The notes beneath the pieces were generated by a model. It was not told where the DNA came from. It worked only from the letters and a program-made list of their open reading frames with translations, and made no database searches. Both the position numbers and the translations under genes were made by a program. From a virus: DNA of 44,161 nt. The stretch is from IMG/VR virus record IMGVR_UViG_3300049793_000084, positions 1-44,161 of that record; one strand, 5' to 3'. This document shows positions 692 to 44,161 of the stretch, in pieces; within the stretch, counting starts at the first letter, position 1; the number at the start of each line of letters is the position of its first letter.

Positions 692-1837
692 ATGACTATT
701 ACTGACAAGAGAACTTCAGGTAAGAACAAGTCTGTAGGCAATAGGCAGAAGTTTATTAAGCGATATAAACATCGCATTAAACGCTCTGTAGACAGCATCG
801 CTTCAGATAAAGGCATCACTGATGTCCTTAAAGACCGTAAGATTGTCATTAATAATGACGAGATAGAAGAGCCAAATTTTAATTTTGATTTAACTACAGG
901 GGAACGAGACATTATTCTTCCTGGTAATAGGAGCCTACAGAAAGGAGACAAGATACATAGACCTCCTAAAGATGAAGAAGAAGGAACAGAAGGCAGTGAC
1001 AAGGGAGAAGGCTTAGACGAATTTTCCTTTGTGCTAACTAAAGAGGAGTTTCTTGACCTTTATTTCAGTGATATGGCACTTCCTAGTTTCATTAAAGAGA
1101 GCCTAAAAGGCACCAACAAGTATAAGTTTAAGCGCACGGGATATTCTAAAGACGGTATTCCTCCTCGTCTTGACCTTGTTAAAACGCTTAAGCAAGCAAT
1201 GGCTAGACGTATTGCAACTAAATCTAGTCGCTACTTAGACGACATAGACCTACGATACAAGCATTTCACTAAACAGCCTTACCCTGTACGGCAAGCAGTG
1301 ATGATAATGCTGATGGACGTATCTGGGTCTATGGGTGAATACGAGAAAATGATTGCTAAAAAGTTCTTTCTTCTGCTATACTTATTCTTACATAAGGTGT
1401 ATAAGACAGTGGAGGTGAGATTCGTGTCACACACCCAAGAAGCAAAAGAGGTGGACGAGAAAGAATTTTTCTACGGCAAAGAAACCGGAGGCACCATTAT
1501 TTCAGCGGGACTGAAGAAGGTGAACGAAATTGTTAATGAAGTTGACCTCTCCACTACGAATGTTTACATAGCTCAAGCATCAGACGGGGACAACTGGGGA
1601 GGCGACGAAAACCTAACTGAAAACCTTGTAGTGGAACTTCTAGGAAAGGTTCAGTATTTTGCTTATATACAGACAGAACATCCTGATAGGATTAAGATGA
1701 AAGCTAAATACGGCGTCCAAGATGTGATGAGTATGTACGAGAAAATTGCTGAAGCACACAGGAACCTACAGGCTAGACATGTAGTGTCAGAATCAGAAGT
1801 GTATCCTGTACTGCGATCATTGTTTGAAAAAGATTAA
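692..1837 (+). CDS. yeaH: YeaH/YhbH-family protein (DUF444, von Willebrand A-like)
   Basis: The likely start is ATG 692, just after AAGGAAATAGTA; an in-frame upstream extension to 632 overlaps the previous gene and is not needed. The 381-residue product keeps the DUF444 layout: a basic N-terminus (SGKNKSVGNRQKFIKRYK), an acidic Gly/Glu linker near 95-110, an EYLDL-like segment (KEEFLDLYFSDMALP) and a C-terminal vWA-like fold. The metal-site motif D209-x-S211-x-S213 is present, with T268 in ETGGT and D298 in ASDGD. It is about 45 residues shorter than E. coli YeaH, mainly missing a charged helical insert before the vWA part. The family is co-encoded with PrkA and thought to act with it; the biochemical role is not settled. 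Recognised with high confidence. Confidence 0.93.
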   Translation: MTITDKRTSGKNKSVGNRQKFIKRYKHRIKRSVDSIASDKGITDVLKDRKIVINNDEIEEPNFNFDLTTGERDIILPGNRSLQKGDKIHRPPKDEEEGTEGSDKGEGLDEFSFVLTKEEFLDLYFSDMALPSFIKESLKGTNKYKFKRTGYSKDGIPPRLDLVKTLKQAMARRIATKSSRYLDDIDLRYKHFTKQPYPVRQAVMIMLMDVSGSMGEYEKMIAKKFFLLLYLFLHKVYKTVEVRFVSHTQEAKEVDEKEFFYGKETGGTIISAGLKKVNEIVNEVDLSTTNVYIAQASDGDNWGGDENLTENLVVELLGKVQYFAYIQTEHPDRIKMKAKYGVQDVMSMYEKIAEAHRNLQARHVVSESEVYPVLRSLFEKD

Positions 1838-2899: not shown

Positions 2900-3035
2900 A
2901 CTGAAAAACACATTGGTTGTAACTATCTCGTCTATAGTGATTTCTCTTGGTGTAATACTGATTGGAGTTATTTGTGTTGTGCTTTCTATCTCTATTATTC
3001 CTGTGTTAAGTTTCATACTAGGAGTCCATCAATGA
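2889..3035 (+). CDS. Hydrophobic membrane peptide, 48 aa
   Basis: ATG 2889 overlaps the end of the phosphoesterase gene and the TGA overlaps the SpoVR-like start (AATGA at 3032). The protein is almost entirely hydrophobic from residue 8 to 45, with a basic N-terminus (MWSKLK), which suggests one long span or a two-helix hairpin with a tight turn. No Cys pair or known motif. It is the third very small membrane or exported protein in the PrkA-YeaH-SpoVR block. Function unknown. Confidence 0.6.
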   Translation: MWSKLKNTLVVTISSIVISLGVILIGVICVVLSISIIPVLSFILGVHQ

Positions 3036-4510
3036 ACAAGCCAATGTTTACAGGAAGTGAATGGGACATGGACATGCTACATTCTATGTGGAAGACAATA
3101 GACGATGTAGGCAAGAACACATTTGGACTAGATTATTATGAACCCCAAATAGAAATTATTTCCAGTGAACAAATGCTAGATGCCTACTCTTCTGTGGCCA
3201 TGCCAGTTATGTATTCTCATTGGAGTTTCGGCAAGACATTCATACAGAACGAAAGACAATACGCTAAAGGCATGCAGGGGCTCGCCTACGAGGTTGTAAT
3301 CAACACTAACCCCTGTATAGCCTATTTGATGGAAAACAACACAGCGACGCTCCAGGCCCTTGTATTGGCACATGCCAGCTGTGGACACAGTCATTTCTTT
3401 AAGAACAACTATCTATTTAAGAACTGGACAGAAGCCGACTCCATTATTGAATACTTGAAGTTTGCTAAGAAGTTTATTAAAAGCTGTGAAGAAAAATATG
3501 GAGAGAAACGAGTAGAGAAACTGTTAGATGCGTGCCATAGTTTACAGAATCATGGATTCGATAAATATAAGAAGCCCTCCAAGCTCTCCACAGAATTAAA
3601 GTTTCAACGAAAGAAACAATGGGAAAACTATTTTGAAAATACATTCAATGACTTATGGCGCACTGTCCCGAGAATTCCAGAGGGAAAACCCGAAGAATAC
3701 AAAGACGCCTCCTTTCCAGAAGAGAACATATTATACTTCTTAGAAAAGAATAGCCCTATATTAGAAGACTGGGAAAGAGAAATTGTCAGAATAGTGAGAA
3801 AGATTGCTCAGTATTTTTATCCTCAACGACAAACGCAACTGCTTAACGAAGGGTTTGCTACATTCACCCACCATATGATAATGACTGAACTACATGACCA
3901 GGGCCACTTAACTGACGGGGCGTACATAGAGTTTCTTACGAACCACGCAGGTGTTATTGCCCAGCAGTCATGGGAAAGCAAACACTACAGGGGCATTAAT
4001 GTATACGCATTAGGCTTCGCTATGCTTATGGACATAAAGAGGATGTGCCTCGAGCCAGACGACGAAGACAGGAAGTGGTTCCCTGAACTAGAAGGAGCAG
4101 ATTGGCTAGCCACTATTAAGTATATTGTAGAGAATTACAGGGACGAAAGCTTTGTGCTCCAATACCTGTCCCCTAAGGTGGCAAGACGATTCAAACTATT
4201 TTCTATCCACGTTAAAGAAAAGACCCCTTATTTAAAAGTTAATGCTACACACGATGAGGAATCGTTCTTACACATCAGAAAAGCGTTAGCTGAAATGTAT
4301 GATTTAAGTAGGAATATTCCTCAAATAGAGGTGGTTGGAGTGGACTGGAAAGATGATAGATGGCTGTACCTTGAGCACATAACTAAGGACAATCAACGAT
4401 TAGAATATTACGACATGAGAAAAACTGTGCAGTACATAAGAGACTTATGGGGATTTACCGTGAAGATGGAATATGTAGACTTAGACGGAAAACCTCTTGA
4501 TGATGTTTAG
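3032..4510 (+). CDS. spoVR: SpoVR / YcgB family protein
   Basis: Start chosen at ATG 3032 after TAGGAGTCCATCA; the 492-residue length fits the family (about 500). Conserved blocks are all present in order: YYEPQIEIISSEQMLDAYSS near 35-54, HWSFGK near 63-68, GLAYEVVINTNPCIAYLMEN near 83-102, the His-rich HASCGHSHFFKNNYLF at 114-129, LYFLEKNSP near 234-242, YFYPQRQTQLLNEGFATF near 261-278, and INVYALGFAM. The H-x4-H and NEG(F/W)AT blocks look like a metal-binding, metalloprotease-like core, but no activity is established for the family. SpoVR co-occurs with PrkA and YeaH across bacteria; B. subtilis SpoVR affects spore cortex formation. Here all three sit in one cluster. Confidence 0.95.
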   Translation: MNKPMFTGSEWDMDMLHSMWKTIDDVGKNTFGLDYYEPQIEIISSEQMLDAYSSVAMPVMYSHWSFGKTFIQNERQYAKGMQGLAYEVVINTNPCIAYLMENNTATLQALVLAHASCGHSHFFKNNYLFKNWTEADSIIEYLKFAKKFIKSCEEKYGEKRVEKLLDACHSLQNHGFDKYKKPSKLSTELKFQRKKQWENYFENTFNDLWRTVPRIPEGKPEEYKDASFPEENILYFLEKNSPILEDWEREIVRIVRKIAQYFYPQRQTQLLNEGFATFTHHMIMTELHDQGHLTDGAYIEFLTNHAGVIAQQSWESKHYRGINVYALGFAMLMDIKRMCLEPDDEDRKWFPELEGADWLATIKYIVENYRDESFVLQYLSPKVARRFKLFSIHVKEKTPYLKVNATHDEESFLHIRKALAEMYDLSRNIPQIEVVGVDWKDDRWLYLEHITKDNQRLEYYDMRKTVQYIRDLWGFTVKMEYVDLDGKPLDDV

Positions 4511-14457: not shown

Positions 14458-15693
14458 TTAAAATAACCCCGATCGTTGTACTGTCTGTTGAGGTTGTTGA
14501 TATTGAGTTACTGCTCCCGCTAAATTTGTGGCTTGGTTTGCAGCGTTTATTTGTGCGGTGGCGTCCCCTGCTTGGGTTATATTATTAGACTGAGCAGCAC
14601 CTGTATTTGCTATACCACTTAATCCTGCGTTTCCTTGGTTGGCATATACAGACCCTAGGTTGCTTCCGGTTTGATTTGTCATATTAGCTTGAGCCGACCC
14701 GTTGGTCATTGCATTGTTTGCACCTACGTCTCCGCCTGCAAGTCCTGCTAAGCTGTTTTGGTAGTTATTAAATATCGTGTTCTGTTGATTCCACCAATTG
14801 TTATAGTCTTGTGACGCCATCCCTTGAGCTCTATCTGTAATACTCCTCATTAAACTGCCTGAGCCTAAAAGTCCTTGAGCTGCTCCTGTCGCCTGTGTTT
14901 GACGTAAAGCATCATTAACAGCAAACTGGTAGCCAGGGCTCTGTTGGTAATACTGTCCTGCGCCCTGTCCTAATAGTTGATTTGCAGCAGACCCCTGAAA
15001 ACCGCTTAAGGCTCCTTGAGGAGACGTAGCTTGCATAGCAGTGTTACTACCGGGAGCTGCTTGTGACTGAGCGCTTGGAACCTGATAGCTGCTGTTAGGG
15101 TCAGCAACAGGATAGGATGTCTGAGGAGTGATGTCAGAAGGGGCTCCTCCTAATGTCATTCCATTTGCTGTTGACTGAGATACATTAGAGGGGGTTCCGT
15201 TATATGCTTGCAGTGAGCCTCCGGAAGTCATTCCGTTTGAGCCACTTCCTCCTCCGCCTGATGCTCCTGTAGCACCTCCTCCGGTGCTATTTGGGGACAC
15301 ATAAGGAACCAGAGAGTTTGTAGCTGCTCTCATTTGTTCTGGAGACATAACTCCTGGGGCTCCTGTGGAGGTTATGCCAGAATTAGCTGTACTTCCTGCA
15401 TATGGATTAGATCCTGAAGCAGCTCCTATGTTTCCTCCTACATTCCCTGCAGCAGCGGCATTAGACGCAGGGGCTGAAGCTAACACTCCCCATTGATTGC
15501 CATATCGACCTGCTCCTGGGGTGTATGTGTTAGAGTAGGTCATTTGAGGTGCTAACGCTTGTGCTCCTGCAGCAGCTCCTGCATTACCTCCAAATAATCC
15601 GGTAGCCCCTTGTACAACTGAACTAGCTCCTGCTGGATATTGGGCAGCTTGGGTTGCGCCTTGGATTACATTGCCGTAATAATCAGTAGCCAT
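14458..15693 (-). CDS. DNA transfer (ejection) protein
   Basis: The 411-residue protein is Gly/Ala/Ser/Gln-rich and low-complexity for about 230 residues, then has the conserved segment SPGYQFAVNDALRQTQATGA followed by GLLGSGSLMRSITDRAQGMA and a YNNWWNQQNTIFNNYQNSLA helix. That is the hallmark of the phage DNA-transfer/ejection protein family widely found in podo- and siphoviruses. It would be carried in the virion and released with the DNA. A AAGGAAATCAAA site precedes the start. Confidence 0.72.
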   Translation of the reverse strand: MATDYYGNVIQGATQAAQYPAGASSVVQGATGLFGGNAGAAAGAQALAPQMTYSNTYTPGAGRYGNQWGVLASAPASNAAAAGNVGGNIGAASGSNPYAGSTANSGITSTGAPGVMSPEQMRAATNSLVPYVSPNSTGGGATGASGGGGSGSNGMTSGGSLQAYNGTPSNVSQSTANGMTLGGAPSDITPQTSYPVADPNSSYQVPSAQSQAAPGSNTAMQATSPQGALSGFQGSAANQLLGQGAGQYYQQSPGYQFAVNDALRQTQATGAAQGLLGSGSLMRSITDRAQGMASQDYNNWWNQQNTIFNNYQNSLAGLAGGDVGANNAMTNGSAQANMTNQTGSNLGSVYANQGNAGLSGIANTGAAQSNNITQAGDATAQINAANQATNLAGAVTQYQQPQQTVQRSGLF

Positions 15694-32642: not shown

Positions 32643-32765
32643 TAAGGGTACATCTAGTTTGAACAAGTTAACTGTATGTATCCATTAAGTATTTTACTGT
32701 ATAGTGTGCAGGACTTTCACCTGCTGTCTCTCTAAGAGAGTCTTTTCAAACTGAGTGTACCCTTA
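32643..32765 (-). ncRNA. Structured leader RNA before the holin gene
   Basis: Arms at 32643-32663 and 32745-32765 pair in 18 of 21 positions: a 10-bp outer stem, a 3-base internal loop and an 8-bp inner stem. Inside are two perfect hairpins: CTCTC(3)GAGAG at 32728-32740 and GCAGG(7)CCTGC at 32708-32724. Transcribed from the minus promoter at 32800-32828 this lies in a leader of about 180 bases, ending about 15 bases before the holin ribosome-binding site. It may control holin translation timing or be a processed small RNA. No known RNA family recognised. Confidence 0.65.
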
Positions 32766-36433: not shown

Positions 36434-37272
36434 TAGACGAGATGGTGTACGGGCATGCTCAAGCTAAGAAAGCCCTTAGAGTGATGCTTAAACGCTCTCA
36501 GGAGCGTTATTATAAGAAGTGTGTGTTAGGGGAAGAGGTAGTGCAGGACACGCTTAAGTGCCTTCTAATTGGCTCTAGCGGGACGGGCAAAACCCACTTA
36601 GTGCAAAGCATGAGTAAGCTGCATAAGTTCCCACTGATAACACTGGACGCAACCTACTTTACACCTGTGGGCAACACTGGCGGCGTCAACCCTATACAAT
36701 TAAAGGAACGGATTAGGAACACTGCTAGCGAATACTGTAAGCAGCCAGAGTATTTCTCACCAGAAGGCGTGATAAATCAGATGGTAATATTTGTGGATGA
36801 GTTCGATAAGCTAGGGTCTTCTTGGGAATCTACAGGAACGTGGAACAGTCATGTTCAAGCTAACTTTTTGACTCTCATTGAGGACAAGGGCGAGTTTTCA
36901 GGCATCTCTTGGATATTCGCCGGGGCATTCAGTAGTTTGTTTGCTAAAACGCGTTCAACGTATATAGGTTTTCCAGCTCAGGTGGAAGACAAAGAAAAAC
37001 CTAAGAAAATACAAGACAGTGACATCATAAAAACTGGGATACTACCAGAACTGCTAGGGCGCATATCATTGGTTCTTCAGTTGGACACTTTTACTAAAGA
37101 AGACTTCAAGAGGGTTCTAGTTGAGAGACTACTTCCGTTATATCCCACTCTGGAATCAGTGGATGTGGACGAAATGGTGGAGAATGCCTACAATAGCGAG
37201 TTAGGGATACGTAGCTTAACCAGGCAGTTAGAATTGCTTGCAATCGATCAAGAATGGGAGGCTACACTCTAA
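36430..37272 (+). CDS. ClpX-like AAA+ ATPase without zinc domain
   Basis: The 280-residue protein shows Walker A GSSGTGKT at 48-55, Walker B IFVDEFDKL at 120-128, the ClpX-type ILPELLGRISLVLQLDTFTKEDF segment near 214-236 and a sensor-2 arginine in ELGIRSLTR near 259. All AAA+ catalytic parts are present. The N-terminal zinc-binding dimer domain of ClpX is absent, and I see no IGF-type ClpP-binding loop. It is followed immediately by the Fis-like gene. It may remodel a replication or transcription complex, serve as helicase loader (no DnaB-type helicase is seen here), or unfold a target for another protease. Confidence 0.8.
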   Translation: MIDEMVYGHAQAKKALRVMLKRSQERYYKKCVLGEEVVQDTLKCLLIGSSGTGKTHLVQSMSKLHKFPLITLDATYFTPVGNTGGVNPIQLKERIRNTASEYCKQPEYFSPEGVINQMVIFVDEFDKLGSSWESTGTWNSHVQANFLTLIEDKGEFSGISWIFAGAFSSLFAKTRSTYIGFPAQVEDKEKPKKIQDSDIIKTGILPELLGRISLVLQLDTFTKEDFKRVLVERLLPLYPTLESVDVDEMVENAYNSELGIRSLTRQLELLAIDQEWEATL

Positions 37273-37451
37273 TGAAGACTGTTAACCGTATGATGAACTT
37301 AAAGCAGTTTAAAGAAGCTCTATGGGAGGCAGAACGCCTCATATATCGAACAGCATATGAACATGCTAAATGCAATCAGTCAGAAGCAGCACGAACTTTA
37401 GGGGTTTCACGAACAACATTTATTAACAAGATGAAGGAGTATTTAAGATGA
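37272..37451 (+). CDS. Fis-like helix-turn-helix protein
   Basis: ATG 37272 overlaps the ATPase stop (TAATG) and follows GGGAGG. The 59-residue protein ends with AYEHAKCNQSEAARTLGVSRTTFINKMKEYL, the HTH of Fis and of NtrC-type activators. It has only a short N-terminal helix (MKTVNRMMNLKQFKEALWEAERL) for dimerisation and lacks the rest of an NtrC-type activator. As an early protein it could control phage promoters. Overlap with a AAA+ gene is suggestive: the two together are like a split bacterial enhancer-binding protein, but the ATPase is ClpX-like and lacks the sigma54 GAFTGA loop. Confidence 0.82.
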   Translation: MKTVNRMMNLKQFKEALWEAERLIYRTAYEHAKCNQSEAARTLGVSRTTFINKMKEYLR

Positions 37452-37625: not shown

Positions 37626-37775
37626 ATGGACATAACAACATTAGTAGAACTGGCTAGGGAATATGGGCTTCCATGTGTTGAGCGAGAAGGAAGCGTAACA
37701 GTAGTGGGAGAGAAACAACTTTTGATTTTTAACATAGTGGAGGAAACACAATGTCAACTAATAGAAATCTATTGA
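37626..37775 (+). CDS. Hypothetical protein, 49 aa, overlapping the ssDNA-binding gene
   Basis: ATG 37626 after AGGAACAAACAC. The protein has a helical start (MDITTLVELAREYGLP) that looks like a small HTH fragment. It overlaps the next gene by 25 bases in another frame. No family recognised. Confidence 0.5.
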   Translation: MDITTLVELAREYGLPCVEREGSVTVVGEKQLLIFNIVEETQCQLIEIY

Positions 37776-38269
37776 CATCGCCAATTGGAGAAATCCAGTT
37801 TATGGCAGCAGAAAATCCGGTAAAAGCTACAAAGGCAGATGACAAGCTTGTTTACACCGTTAAATTGGCTTTTGATAACAAGAAAGATAAAGAGTGGTTA
37901 GCTCAAGTGGCTGAAATTAACGAAGCTAAAGTTGTGACTGAAAAATCCTATCGAGGAAAATCAGAATCAATTAAAGCAGTGTTGGCTCAAGGTAAGAGTT
38001 TAGTCAGTGCATCATCTAAGTTTAAACCAACGATTTATGACTCAGAAGGTAACGAACTAGAAGAAGCACCTATGTTCTTTGCAGACTCAAAAGGCACTGC
38101 ACAGATGATTGTACAGCCATACCAAGGAGGAAAAGGCGGCACTATTAATCTAATCGGTATCATCGTGTATAACATTGAAAATGCTGAAGGGAACACAACT
38201 GACGGATCAAGCCGAGAGTCTAGGCTGGATCAATTGAGAGCAATAGTGAAAGCTGTAACAAAAAGTTAA
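37751..38269 (+). CDS. ssDNA-binding-type protein (DUF2815-like)
   Basis: The 172-residue protein has an N-terminal region with LLTSPIGEIQFMAAENP, beta-strand pattern typical of OB-fold ssDNA-binding proteins (VYTVKLAF, IYDSEGNELEEAPMFFADSKGTAQMIVQPY), a Gly-rich loop (QGGKGG) and a C-terminal helix. The arrangement resembles phage DUF2815/SSB-like proteins, which are usually next to the DNA polymerase, as here. I do not see the acidic SSB tail. Probably coats ssDNA during replication. GTGGAGGAAACACA precedes the start. Confidence 0.68.
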   Translation: MSTNRNLLTSPIGEIQFMAAENPVKATKADDKLVYTVKLAFDNKKDKEWLAQVAEINEAKVVTEKSYRGKSESIKAVLAQGKSLVSASSKFKPTIYDSEGNELEEAPMFFADSKGTAQMIVQPYQGGKGGTINLIGIIVYNIENAEGNTTDGSSRESRLDQLRAIVKAVTKS

Positions 38270-38284
38270 AACATTCCATCTAAC

Positions 38285-38312
38285 GTCCTAGTTAACCTAG
38301 GACATTTTTTTT
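38285..38312 (+). terminator. Intrinsic terminator after the ssDNA-binding gene
   Basis: GTCCTAG at 38285-38291, loop TTAAC, CTAGGAC at 38297-38303: a perfect 7-bp stem, followed after one base by eight T residues (38305-38312). It is a textbook rho-independent terminator for transcripts from P3. The polymerase gene must therefore be read by leak-through or from another start. Confidence 0.9.
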
Positions 38313-38494
38313 GCCCCGCCTGTGCTGGTATTAAGCCGAAGAGAGCACCGAGCGACCTAGGTTATGAAGGGCAAATATTTAGAGGCTTGGAACAGCCAAG
38401 GAAATGCGAGCAGTGTGAGCGAAGACATCAGTCAGGTAGGGCAAGAAATCACACGAAACTCTTGTCTGAAGTAGGTTCAAGTCCTACCCTCTAA
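38311..38494 (+). ncRNA. Candidate structured RNA with tRNA-like 3' domain
   Basis: Lies in a 319-bp gene-free gap. The 3' part mimics a tRNA: GTAGG-TTCAAGT-CCTAC at 38471-38487 is a perfect 5-bp T arm with T-loop consensus (TTCRANY), followed with no gap by CCTCTAA, which pairs over 7 bp with TTAGAGG at 38379-38385. Between them are hairpin CTTGG(5)CCAAG (38386-38400) and a possible pseudoknot: GTGTGA/TCACAC (38413-18/38449-54) with AGACA/TGTCT (38423-27/38463-67). A 5' part closes with TTGCCC/GGGCAA (38311-16/38369-74) and an inner GTGCT/AGCAC stem. GGTAGGG (38435-41) could instead pair with CCTACCC (38483-89). No anticodon arm or D loop is canonical, so it is not an ordinary tRNA. Confidence 0.6.
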
Positions 38495-38588
38495 TTTCAC
38501 TTGAACGAGGTATTTCTAGTTTAAAAACACATGAGTAGAAGGAAAAATCTGTTGAATTAACTCGAACGTAGTAATAAAAGGGGAACAC

Positions 38589-40553
38589 ATGAGTGATATC
38601 GCAATCGACTTTGAGACACATCTCATAGGTAACGAAGCAGTGTTCCCAAAGCCAGTGTGCCTCTCAGCCTATACAGGTTCAGAGGCTTTTTTATTTAATA
38701 ACGATGAAGCCAGAAAGTTTTTAGCAGAACACTTAAACGTAGACATTCTTATAGCACACAACGCAGTGTTTGAATGTGGCGTTATTATAACGCACTATCC
38801 TGAATTAGCAGAGAAGGTGTTTGCTGCACTGGATAATGGCTTAATATATTGTACTAAAGTGAATGAAGCACTGTGGAACATCCAAAGAGAAAAGGCAATG
38901 ATGAAACTAACTCTTGCCGATTTAGTGCAACATTATTTCGATACAGACATCAGTGCAACAAAGACTGCTGATGCATGGCGACTAAGATATTCTGAACTGG
39001 ATGGTATTCCAATTAGTGAATGGCCTAAAGAAGCAGTTGAGTATGCCATAGATGATTCTATATGGGCATATAAAACTAAGCAAAAGCAAAAATACATAAA
39101 TCAGCAGTTAGCTTTAAAGTCAGCTGTATTTCTTAACATAATGGGGGCAACAGGATTCTCTATAGACAACGAAAGGGTTTTATTATTAGAGAAAGAAATC
39201 TGGGAATACCTCACTCCGAGATATGACTTTTTAGTGAAAGAAGGATTCTGTGATTATATAGCTAGACAAAAACAGCCTAGAAAGCAAATTAAGAAGCTGA
39301 AAGCCTATGTCGAAGACTTAGGTGTCACCCTACAGTATACAACTAAAGGTGGTGTAGCGACGTCAGGAGAGGCCATATCGGCCTATTTAACAGAACAACC
39401 AAACCCAGTTTTGCAGGCATTCTCGGAATTATCTAGATATGAAAAAATCCTCACTTCATATGTATCTCGACTTAAAAGTGCAAAGAAGATTTACTCTCAA
39501 TATTCCACAACTAAAAATACGGGACGAACTTCTTCAAGTGCCTCAAAGCTGTTTGACAGCATTAATATTCAACAGATTCCACGTGCCGTTGAAGGGGTTT
39601 CGTACGACGTGCGAAATTGTTTCGTTCCTAGAGAAGGGTTTAAGGTTTGTTCTATTGACTATAGTGGACTGGAGTTATGCTCTGCAGCACATCAGTTATT
39701 TACCACCTTGAAATATTCTTGCATGAGAGACGCATTGAACGAAGGAGATAAGCCTACAGACATGCATTCCAAGTTAGCAGCTAAGCTTAAGGGAATCTCA
39801 TATGAAGAATTCATGGAACATAAAAGTGAATATAAAGACGCTAGACAGAAAGCTAAGCCAATTAACTTAGGGTTTCCAGGAGGCATCGGATATGACACTA
39901 TGCGTCACCTTATGTGGAAAGACGGAATTAAAACAAGATTTGAAATATTAGAAACCTCTAAGAATAAACAAGATCTCAACTATTATTTATTTAACTTACA
40001 TGCCCCTGATGTAAGGATTAAGCGTTTAAACAAATCAGAATACGCTTTGGTGCAAGACGAGCTTGTACTGCTTAAGAGATATATGTTTGAACTATACCCA
40101 GAGTTAGAACAGTTCTTGAAAGAAACTCACTTGAAATTTTTAACAGGCAAGATGAAGTTTAAGAAGAATGAGTTTGATGAATGGGAAGAAGAGCCCATGT
40201 ACATGTATGATACTCATGGATTTAAACGCGACTGGTGTACATACACAGCTTTATGTAATGGCTTCTTAATGCAAACCCCTTCAGCTGTTGGAGCCCAGAA
40301 AGCAGTCAATAAAGTGTGTAGAGAATTTTATAGCGAACCAGACATTATTCCACAATCGTTCATCCACGACGAAATAGTTTTTGAAGTGAGAGAAGGTAGG
40401 TATGACTTAGTGGAACGAGCGGCGTATATAATGATAGAAGAAATGCAAACAGTTTTATCCTCAGTGAGGATAGCAGTGGAGGCAAGCATTTCTGACTACT
40501 GGCAAAAGGCAGACGGTTTTTGGACTAAAAGTTTCTGGAGAAACCCTAAATGA
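38589..40553 (+). CDS. Family A DNA polymerase with 3'-5' exonuclease
   Basis: The 654-residue protein has exonuclease motifs D7-x-E9 (AIDFET), LIAHNAVFE near 54-62 and YAIDDSIWAYK near 156-166, and the polymerase signatures SIDYSGLELCSAAH (motif A), KDARQKAKPINLGFPGGIGYD (motif B: R-x3-K-x6-F-x-G) and SFIHDEIVFEV (motif C, HDE). It is the phage replicative polymerase, T7-type in size but without the T7 fold certainty. GGGGAACAC precedes ATG 38589. It sits immediately after the candidate ncRNA. No phage primase or helicase gene is visible nearby. Confidence 0.95.
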   Translation: MSDIAIDFETHLIGNEAVFPKPVCLSAYTGSEAFLFNNDEARKFLAEHLNVDILIAHNAVFECGVIITHYPELAEKVFAALDNGLIYCTKVNEALWNIQREKAMMKLTLADLVQHYFDTDISATKTADAWRLRYSELDGIPISEWPKEAVEYAIDDSIWAYKTKQKQKYINQQLALKSAVFLNIMGATGFSIDNERVLLLEKEIWEYLTPRYDFLVKEGFCDYIARQKQPRKQIKKLKAYVEDLGVTLQYTTKGGVATSGEAISAYLTEQPNPVLQAFSELSRYEKILTSYVSRLKSAKKIYSQYSTTKNTGRTSSSASKLFDSINIQQIPRAVEGVSYDVRNCFVPREGFKVCSIDYSGLELCSAAHQLFTTLKYSCMRDALNEGDKPTDMHSKLAAKLKGISYEEFMEHKSEYKDARQKAKPINLGFPGGIGYDTMRHLMWKDGIKTRFEILETSKNKQDLNYYLFNLHAPDVRIKRLNKSEYALVQDELVLLKRYMFELYPELEQFLKETHLKFLTGKMKFKKNEFDEWEEEPMYMYDTHGFKRDWCTYTALCNGFLMQTPSAVGAQKAVNKVCREFYSEPDIIPQSFIHDEIVFEVREGRYDLVERAAYIMIEEMQTVLSSVRIAVEASISDYWQKADGFWTKSFWRNPK

Positions 40554-42146: not shown

Positions 42147-42405
42147 ACGACATAGTATAATAGAAGCTTGCTCAAACGTATTTAGCGGAATGGTGATTGC
42201 TTTTGTTATATCTCAGTTGGCGCATATGTATTCACCAGAGATTAGACAGTATATATGGAAGGGTTTTGAGTGGAAGGTAAGCGTAGGAAGTAATGCAGTA
42301 ATGACAGTTATACTGACAGTGATTTCCATAGTAAGAGGCTATTTGTGGAGAAGACATTTCAATAGGGTGCAAGAACAAAACTATAAAGGGGAAAACAATG
42401 GCTAA
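42136..42405 (+). CDS. Two-span phage membrane protein
   Basis: The 89-residue protein has a basic start (MQSKRHSIIEACSNVFSGMVIAFVISQLAHMY) and two membrane spans, then a basic VRGYLWRRHFNRVQEQ end. The pattern K/R-x-S-x-x-E-x-x-x-N-x-x-x-G-x-x-x-A/S with a terminal (R)SY-x-x-RRxFNR is that of a family of small phage membrane proteins. Overlaps the start of prkA by 8 bases in another frame, so coupling is likely. Confidence 0.7.
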   Translation: MQSKRHSIIEACSNVFSGMVIAFVISQLAHMYSPEIRQYIWKGFEWKVSVGSNAVMTVILTVISIVRGYLWRRHFNRVQEQNYKGENNG

Positions 42406-44161
42406 TTTATTTCAGCTAGGTACATACGAGACAGAACTGATGTCGTTAGAGGCGTACACGAAGTTAGCACAAAAAGACCCCTCTGTGTATGCATCACCTG
42501 CTCACCGAATGTTAAAAGCAATCGGGGAACCGAAGAAAGTGGACACAGCGAAAACACCTCGTCTCAGCAGAATATTTGGTAATAGAACAATCAGAACTTA
42601 TGAGGTCTTTTCTGACTTTTATGGATTAGAAGACGTCATCAGTAGAATAGTTTCGTTCTTCCAACATGCTGCCCAAAACCTGGAAGAATCCAGACAGATT
42701 CTATACCTTCTAGGACCTGTTGGCTCCGCTAAATCATCGTTAGTGGAATGCTTAAAATCTCTTATGGAGAAAGAACCAATCTATATATTAGCAGATGCTG
42801 ACGGAAACCCTAGTCCTATTAATGAAAGTCCATTAGGTGTGTGTGGTAAAGAACTGTTAGCTAAACTGAAAATTAAATCAGTGCCTGTAATTCCGAGTCC
42901 GTGGGCTACAAAACGACTTAAGGAATACAAAGGAGACCTATCTAAGTTTAACGTAATCAAACGCCATCCTGCTCAGTTGGAACAAGTGGCGCTAGCTAAA
43001 GTGGAGCCAGGCGATGAGAACAATCAGGACATCTCAGCTCTTGTAGGTAAGGTGGACATCAGGAAATTAGAGCATTTTAACCAAAACGACGCTGATGCGT
43101 ACAGCTATTCAGGCGGATTGTGTCTAGCCAATCAAGGCATGTTAGAATTCGTGGAAATGTTTAAAGCACCAATTAAGATGCTCCATCCGTTACTGACGGC
43201 AACACAGGAAAGAAACTACAAAGGAACAGAAGCGATCTCAGCTATCCCGTTCCAAGGCATCATCGTAGCTCACAGTAACGAATCTGAGTGGGATACATTC
43301 AAGAACAACAAGAACAACGAAGCGTTCCTCGATAGGGTTTACTCAGTGGAAGTGCCTTATTGTCTACAAGTGACTGAAGAGCAAAAGATTTATAAGAAGC
43401 TTCTTAACAGCAGTACGCTTAGTGAAGCTCCTACCGCTCCATACACCTTAGAGCTGCTATCTCAGTTCAGCGTGCTAACACGACTAGAAGAGCCAGAAAA
43501 CTCTAGTGTTGTATCTAAGATGCGCGTATATGACGGAGAGAACGTAAAAGAAAAAGATACTCAAGCCAAAAGCTATCAAGAGTACAAAGATGCCACTACA
43601 GCTAATGAAGGGTTCTTCGGAATATCCACACGACTAGCATACAAGGTTCTTGCTGAAGTGTACAACTTTGACCACGATGAGATAGCAGCAGACCCTGTTC
43701 ACTTACTGTATGTACTGGAAAAAACCATACAGAAAGGCAGACTGCCAAAAGAAGTTGAAGAGAAATATCTAGACTACATTAAAGAATATCTGGTTCCTTA
43801 TTATGCAACTAAAGTGGGTAAAGACATTCAGACTGCATACCTAGATTCCTATCAAGAATTCGGGCAGTCACTGTTTGACAGATACATAATGTTTGCGGAC
43901 CACTGGGTGCAAGATAATGACTACAGAGACGTGGACACTGGACAGATGTTTGACCGAGAGTCTTTAAACAAAGAACTAGAAAAGATAGAAAAGCCAGCAG
44001 AGATAGCCAACCCTAAAGACTTTAGACACGAGGTGGTTAACTTCGCTCTGAGATACCAAGCTAAACATGACGGAAAGAACCCCTCTTGGACCTCATATGA
44101 GAAACTTCGAAGAGTTATAGAGAGTACAATGTTTAGTAAAACTCAAGACCTTTTGCCTGTA
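42398..44161 (+). CDS. prkA: PrkA-family serine protein kinase / AAA+ protein (YeaG-like), N-terminal 588 residues
   Basis: ATG 42398 after AAAGGGGAAAACA; the gene is open to the window edge and continues at base 1, total 633 residues. The N-terminal AAA domain has a Walker A GPVGSAKSS at 106-114 (the E. coli protein has GPVGGGKSS) and conserved blocks: SPWATKRLKEYKGDLSKF, KTEPGDENNQDISALVGKVDIRKLEHF-like, MEFVEMFKAPIKMLHPLLTATQE, SNESEWDTFKNNKNNEAFLDRVY, and RLEEPENSSVVSKMRVYDGE. The second half is the C-terminal PrkA domain (DRYIMFADHWVQDNDYRDVDTGQMFDRESLN). It was described as a serine kinase; AAA+/protease-like activity has also been proposed for the family. It heads the cluster with YeaH and SpoVR. 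Confidence 0.96.
   Translation, partial: MANLFQLGTYETELMSLEAYTKLAQKDPSVYASPAHRMLKAIGEPKKVDTAKTPRLSRIFGNRTIRTYEVFSDFYGLEDVISRIVSFFQHAAQNLEESRQILYLLGPVGSAKSSLVECLKSLMEKEPIYILADADGNPSPINESPLGVCGKELLAKLKIKSVPVIPSPWATKRLKEYKGDLSKFNVIKRHPAQLEQVALAKVEPGDENNQDISALVGKVDIRKLEHFNQNDADAYSYSGGLCLANQGMLEFVEMFKAPIKMLHPLLTATQERNYKGTEAISAIPFQGIIVAHSNESEWDTFKNNKNNEAFLDRVYSVEVPYCLQVTEEQKIYKKLLNSSTLSEAPTAPYTLELLSQFSVLTRLEEPENSSVVSKMRVYDGENVKEKDTQAKSYQEYKDATTANEGFFGISTRLAYKVLAEVYNFDHDEIAADPVHLLYVLEKTIQKGRLPKEVEEKYLDYIKEYLVPYYATKVGKDIQTAYLDSYQEFGQSLFDRYIMFADHWVQDNDYRDVDTGQMFDRESLNKELEKIEKPAEIANPKDFRHEVVNFALRYQAKHDGKNPSWTSYEKLRRVIESTMFSKTQDLLPV
44035..44161. repeat. Right copy of 127-bp terminal overlap
   Basis: Exact copy of 1-127. 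It places the end of the window back at the start and closes the genome as a 44,034-bp circle. Confidence 0.95.

Follow-up and report, generated by a model that had tools for sequence, protein, structure and literature searches.

A candidate orphan tRNA-like RNA of 116 nucleotides between two replication genes of a phage

Introduction

Several phages carry RNAs that are oversized but keep their T arm intact: T4, T5-like phages, the T4-like Acinetobacter phage 133, and phages of Serratia, Cronobacter and Vibrio; the viral sequence L051 has one as well. The first of these RNAs was the species 1 stable RNA of T4 (rnaC), which is 139 nt long, sits in a tRNA cluster and matches more than 700 phage records; the literature that we searched assigns it no function. 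The T-arm RNA of T5-like phages and Acinetobacter phage 133 likewise lies in tRNA clusters. In Serratia, Cronobacter and Vibrio phages, insert-bearing tRNA genes of about 115-125 nt keep canonical halves and carry an insert of 45-50 nt in the anticodon arm. What the inserts have in common is a hairpin and, after it, TTACRGCA or a sequence close to it, and they look like a small tRNA intron that has gone unrecognised. Vibrio phage D479 has three annotated tRNAs side by side, of 124, 123 and 116 nt. In the L051 element, 8 bp close an anticodon-like arm that is branched, and a search of phage records gave no match. Such RNAs are easily overlooked by tRNA finders, and several are unannotated or misannotated in well-studied phages.

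L024 ~405-527 and L027 ~365-470: T-arm RNA of T5-like phages and Acinetobacter phage 133, ~125 nt, conserved, unannotated, not in Rfam
L073 4919-5035 and 6568-6690: insert-bearing tRNAs of Serratia phage BF
L076, L077 and L078: insert-bearing tRNAs of Cronobacter phage GAP32, Vibrio phage D479 and Vibrio phage nt-1
L051 ~1191-1315, minus strand: oversized, tRNA-like, spacer of 90 nt

Among the phages compared, we also observed candidate circularly permuted tRNAs (L022 ~455-585, L073 ~15170-15330, L079 and L080; Serratia phage BF, Cronobacter phage GAP32 and Pectobacterium phage CBB); our literature search turned up no report of permuted tRNAs in phages. Their order is a 3' half with the T arm, an acceptor whose strands are joined by a short loop (TTCG or ATCG; in CBB it is longer) and a 5' half with the D arm. 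They are flanked upstream by GGAATTCAACAGCAA (GGAATCTAACAGCAA in CBB) and downstream by AAAGAAATGAATTCC (diverged in CBB), and the flanks resemble the two halves of the insert described above, as if the same intron had been permuted.

Results

The window analysed here is a stretch of 44,161 nt, positions 1 to 44,161 of the IMG/VR virus record IMGVR_UViG_3300049793_000084. The element under study lies in the gap between the genes for a single-stranded DNA-binding protein (SSB) and a DNA polymerase:

37751-38269, plus strand: Gp2.5-like ssDNA-binding protein gene, upstream neighbour of the element
38285-38312, plus strand: intrinsic terminator downstream of the ssDNA-binding protein gene
38589-40553, plus strand: DNA polymerase gene; tblastn matched records annotated as DNA polymerase or DNA polymerase I

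The gap opens with the terminator, which is the textbook structure that a first-pass annotation had described, with GTCCTAG-TTAAC-CTAGGAC at 38285-38303 followed by T8. The element (38379-38494) comes next and ends about 95 nt before the polymerase start codon, and a consensus scan found no promoter between terminator and element. No ordinary tRNA gene is recognisable in the phage. Elsewhere, the window holds SpoVR, DUF444 (YhbH/YeaH-like) and a large ATPase-like protein, phrog_22605 (42398-44161, 632-1837 and 2972-4510). By inspection the last of these looks like a PrkA-type kinase, and the set is apparently a host stress operon carried by the phage. A 65-aa protein at 37254-37451, of Fis-type DNA-binding appearance by inspection, adjoins an ATPase gene. 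On the minus strand at 32643-32765, a 21-nt inverted repeat (86% complementary) surrounds the hairpin GCAGG-TGAAAGT-CCTGC, and this noncoding stretch is a possible second structured RNA.

The tRNA-like part of the element is made up of three segments:

38379-38385, plus strand: 5' strand of the acceptor-like stem, TTAGAGG
38471-38487, plus strand: T arm, GTAGG-TTCAAGT-CCTAC
38488-38494, plus strand: 3' strand of the acceptor-like stem, CCTCTAA, followed by TTTCAC

Two features reported in the first-pass annotation, a perfect consensus T arm set directly on a 7-bp acceptor-like stem and a total span of 116 nt, were both confirmed. All pairs are perfect, the T arm stacks on the stem without a gap, the G53-C61 closing pair is present and the loop TTCAAGT fits the TTCRANY consensus, so that the element has the 7-bp acceptor on a 5-bp T stem with such a loop that is seen in tRNAs. 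The span is counted from the first to the last acceptor base; a spacer of 85 nt separates the 5' acceptor strand from the T arm. Positions 38470-38491 match, letter for letter, a Bacteroides phage tRNA-Ile over its T arm and the beginning of its acceptor strand. Bacterial RNase P takes as its substrate a 12-bp coaxial acceptor/T helix with a T loop (PMC11143913), and by sequence and fold prediction the element has this geometry. No CCA is encoded after the 3' acceptor strand, where TTTCAC stands instead; the RCCA motif that pairs with RNase P is thus lacking at the 3' end and could arise only by addition following 3' processing.

We compared the element with known tRNA and tmRNA models. No Rfam family scored above its gathering threshold, and neither ARAGORN nor Rfam matched a tRNA, even at E 10 on 401 bases; neither a D arm nor an anticodon arm was recognised by ARAGORN or the covariance model. 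These missing matches and the lack of a recognisable D arm leave a plain tRNA unsupported, in line with the Rfam check that had been proposed along with the first description, and the element cannot act as a normal codon-reading tRNA. An intron-bearing tRNA, also suggested at that stage, did not hold up on the same grounds, as the insert-bearing phage tRNAs, unlike the element, keep their D arm; the shared insert motif is absent from the window, and the element does not combine it with canonical tRNA halves. A tmRNA was rejected because the element is too short, ARAGORN and Rfam gave no tmRNA match, and neither the tmRNA model nor a tag frame fitted. A permuted tRNA was rejected because inspection by eye found no acceptor partner 3' of 38494.

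Between the acceptor strands and upstream of them, we considered the following pairings:

38386-38400, plus strand: hairpin CTTGG-AACAG-CCAAG in the D-arm position, with D-arm features missing
38413-38454, plus strand: candidate pseudoknot, GTGTGA (38413-38418) with TCACAC (38449-38454)
38439-38467, plus strand: hairpin GGGCAAGA...TCTTGTCT just 5' of the T arm, where a long variable arm would lie
38310-38375, plus strand: 5' domain, closing stem TTTGCCC (38310-38316) with GGGCAAA (38369-38375)
38322-38326 with 38344-38348, plus strand: inner stem of the 5' domain, GTGCT with AGCAC
38435-38488, plus strand: alternative helix, GGTAGGGC (38435-38442) with GTCCTACC (38481-38488), 8 pairs including one G-U
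38307-38448, plus strand: competing helix, TTTTTTGCCC (38307-38316) with GGGCAAGAAA (38439-38448), 10 pairs between the terminator U-tract and the core

The pseudoknot put forward earlier is indeed allowed by the complementarity of its two strands and is kept here as a possibility, of a kind that the folding program cannot score. The extra 5' stems that had been described can also pair, but the closing stem is disfavoured in the predicted ensemble. A helix that would exclude the T arm does exist, as had been claimed, but GGTAGGG and CCTACCC, the strands named for it, do not pair as written, and the real helix is the one of 8 pairs, offset by one base. In transcripts without the U-tract, it accounts for 24-36% of the predicted ensemble, and the hairpin at 38439-38467 forms with a predicted probability of 0.6-0.75. 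The 10-pair helix, which the first-pass annotation did not contain, dominates when the U-tract is in the transcript, as in read-through: the predicted probability of the acceptor stem then falls to 0.00-0.01, with the T arm at 0.95-0.97. For transcripts from 38317, the acceptor stem reaches 0.43-0.79, and for those from 38350 or later that end near 38500 it reaches 0.97-1.0, with the T arm at 0.74-0.76. Since the acceptor stem is lost with the U-tract and formed without it, prediction yields the tRNA-like fold only for an RNA whose 5' end, original or made by a cut, lies 3' of the U-tract.

The frequency with which such an arrangement arises at random was estimated from 4000 dinucleotide shuffles of the whole window. 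A strict scan, limited to Watson-Crick pairs with the G53-C61 closing pair and a TTCRANY loop, found one site in the window and any site at all in 3 of the 4000 shuffles, figures that apply to a site selected out of a large scan of many windows; with G-U pairs allowed, 64 shuffles (1.6%) contained the arrangement. When 363 kb of other viral DNA was scanned with G-U pairs, seven sites were returned, all in L051 and L053. Six of them have tRNA-length spacers and lie within ordinary tRNAs that ARAGORN also calls, and the remaining one is the L051 element with its 90-nt spacer, which received no ARAGORN call. Shuffles and other viral DNA together make a chance origin of the arrangement unlikely, not impossible. 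Folding energies gave z -0.8 for 190 nt and z -1.7 for the 120-nt core, so that the core does marginally better than its shuffles, and folding energy alone is weak evidence.

These data bear directly on the alternative that survives best, in which a T-arm-like hairpin and a matching 7-mer coincide by chance and the region is a spacer or part of a small gene:

38364-38474, plus strand: 36-codon ORF overlapping the element, with a poor ribosome-binding site

We regard this as unlikely, yet as a serious rival. The shuffle count with G-U pairs, the number of windows scanned and the weak z-scores argue for it, and the ORF covers most of the core and stops within the T arm; on the other side stand the rarity of the strict arrangement and, for the small gene, the poor ribosome-binding site and a product that matched nothing in Pfam, PHROG or tblastn.

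Searches of viral contigs (IMG/VR) with the polymerase and SSB yielded five useful relatives, L002, L003, L005, L007 and L008; polymerase identities of the five nearest relatives are 79, 76, 76, 62 and 56%. The element is absent from the SSB-polymerase gap in all five. This gap is short or nearly empty in L002, L007 and L008 and holds non-homologous sequence with small ORFs in L003 and L005, and such variable filler is a further point in favour of a chance origin. A DNA search of the relatives' whole records found no copy, the sole weak match, in L008, being short and of the kind expected by chance. An exact-pattern scan of 2.9 million viral contigs for the T arm plus the CCTCTAA 3' end returned nothing, and three 16-mers from the core showed no similarity to viral contigs past the seed that would suggest a homolog; the hits inspected were chance matches, and those examined in full either resembled protein-coding sequence or had no T arm to match. 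The tRNA 3' end, again as an exact pattern, had no hit in 84,980 bacterial and archaeal genomes, and a second whole-genome scan with the polymerase as query also gave none. Searches of phage records and plasmids found no homolog, and our literature search found no paper describing the element.

The same searches weigh on the idea that the element is a decayed or captured piece of a tRNA, in which the 3' end arrived by recombination, the match in the 5' acceptor strand is a remnant or a coincidence and no function is present. The identity of its T arm with real tRNA sequences and the missing remainder of the cloverleaf would fit such a history, and as the L007 genome (polymerase identity 62%) has a genuine tRNA-Met, the lineage is able to acquire tRNAs. 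Decay should, however, have eroded the acceptor and T stems, which are both perfect, and the failure of the exact pattern to match any of the prokaryote genomes or viral contigs leaves no known donor; we consider this origin distinctly unlikely, although it too is a serious rival to a tRNA-like RNA. Quite improbable is a cis-acting switch in the polymerase leader, in which read-through or processing would be tuned by the T-arm fold excluding, and being excluded by, either the 8-pair alternative or the U-tract helix: mutually exclusive helices of comparable predicted strength are possible and the element lies directly 5' of the polymerase gene, but it stops some 95 nt short of the start codon, the relatives have the same polymerase without the element, and a stretch of 190 nt should contain alternative pairings by chance.

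Discussion

The reading that we favour, with a rough probability of 0.4, is that 38379-38494 encodes an orphan oversized tRNA-like RNA of about 116 nt that would be freed by tRNA end-processing enzymes. The rarity of the strict arrangement in shuffles, its location in a noncoding gap, a T arm identical to that of real phage tRNAs and the high predicted pairing of acceptor stem and T arm in transcripts from at least 38350 all point in this direction, as do the oversized T-arm RNAs of other phages. The main weakness of this reading is the absence of homologs for covariation. Further points against it are the marginal folding of the core, an acceptor probability of 0.01 with the U-tract combined with the lack of a promoter 3' of the terminator, the missing CCA, the 1.6% of shuffles with the G-U arrangement for a site taken from a large scan, and covariance models of the T4 and T5 type that recognise the T arm at most. 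The initial description as a tRNA-like structured RNA accordingly stands as the best account of the 3' part, where precedents among oversized phage RNAs exist, and does not extend to an ordinary tRNA core.

We infer transcription, processing, stability and any function of the element from its sequence and predicted folding. The acceptor-like stem and T arm would form a 12-bp coaxial helix with a T loop that host RNase P may see, and RNase P together with host 3' processing enzymes would cut at both helix ends. Because the helix fits RNase P geometry, 5' processing at 38378/38379 is plausible. The released RNA would be protected, carrying an 85-nt core in place of the D and anticodon arms, and our guesses are that it might act as a decoy that diverts proteins binding or cutting tRNAs, or be mere transcript punctuation between replication genes. 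A more elaborate scheme, in which a new kind of phage RNA copies the acceptor/T half alone as a mimic that recruits host tRNA-processing or tRNA-binding proteins, a new pseudoknotted core acts on host translation or on a tRNA-cutting defence and the U-tract gates folding, strikes us as a long shot.

Compared with tRNA (RF00005), the element has the acceptor stem and T arm but differs in its 116-nt span and in having no recognised D or anticodon arm; with tmRNA it shares the tRNA-like acceptor and T arm, although it is shorter. The insert-bearing tRNAs come close in spacing: Serratia phage BF has two long sites paired at 7 of 7 positions with spacers of 84 and 90 nt, and the L051 element falls in the same range as the 85 nt found here, but the insert-bearing tRNAs retain the D arm and other canonical 5' features. 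The T5-like and Acinetobacter phage 133 RNA resembles the element in its length of about 125 nt, its identical or near-identical T arm and its large noncanonical core, and differs in having a second T-loop-like hairpin and in lying within tRNA clusters. T4 species 1 is likewise oversized: its perfect T arm stacks on an acceptor-like stem, a hairpin precedes the T arm where a variable arm would be, an ordinary cloverleaf is missing, and no Rfam family matches it above threshold. Unlike the element, it has a shorter, interrupted acceptor stem, belongs to a tRNA cluster, folds with much greater stability (z -4.4) and is conserved across hundreds of phages. The covariance models of these two families show no homology: the T4 species 1 model (R1) scored 6.9 bits at the element, below a chance match of 7.8 bits on the opposite strand, and the T5-type model (R2) found the T arm only, at 12.5 bits. 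By inference, the element would thus work like the T4- and T5-type RNAs at its 3' end, with membership in neither family demonstrated. If expressed, it would join the loosely known group of oversized tRNA-like phage RNAs, first represented by T4 species 1, as an unrelated member from a phage in which no tRNA genes are recognisable.
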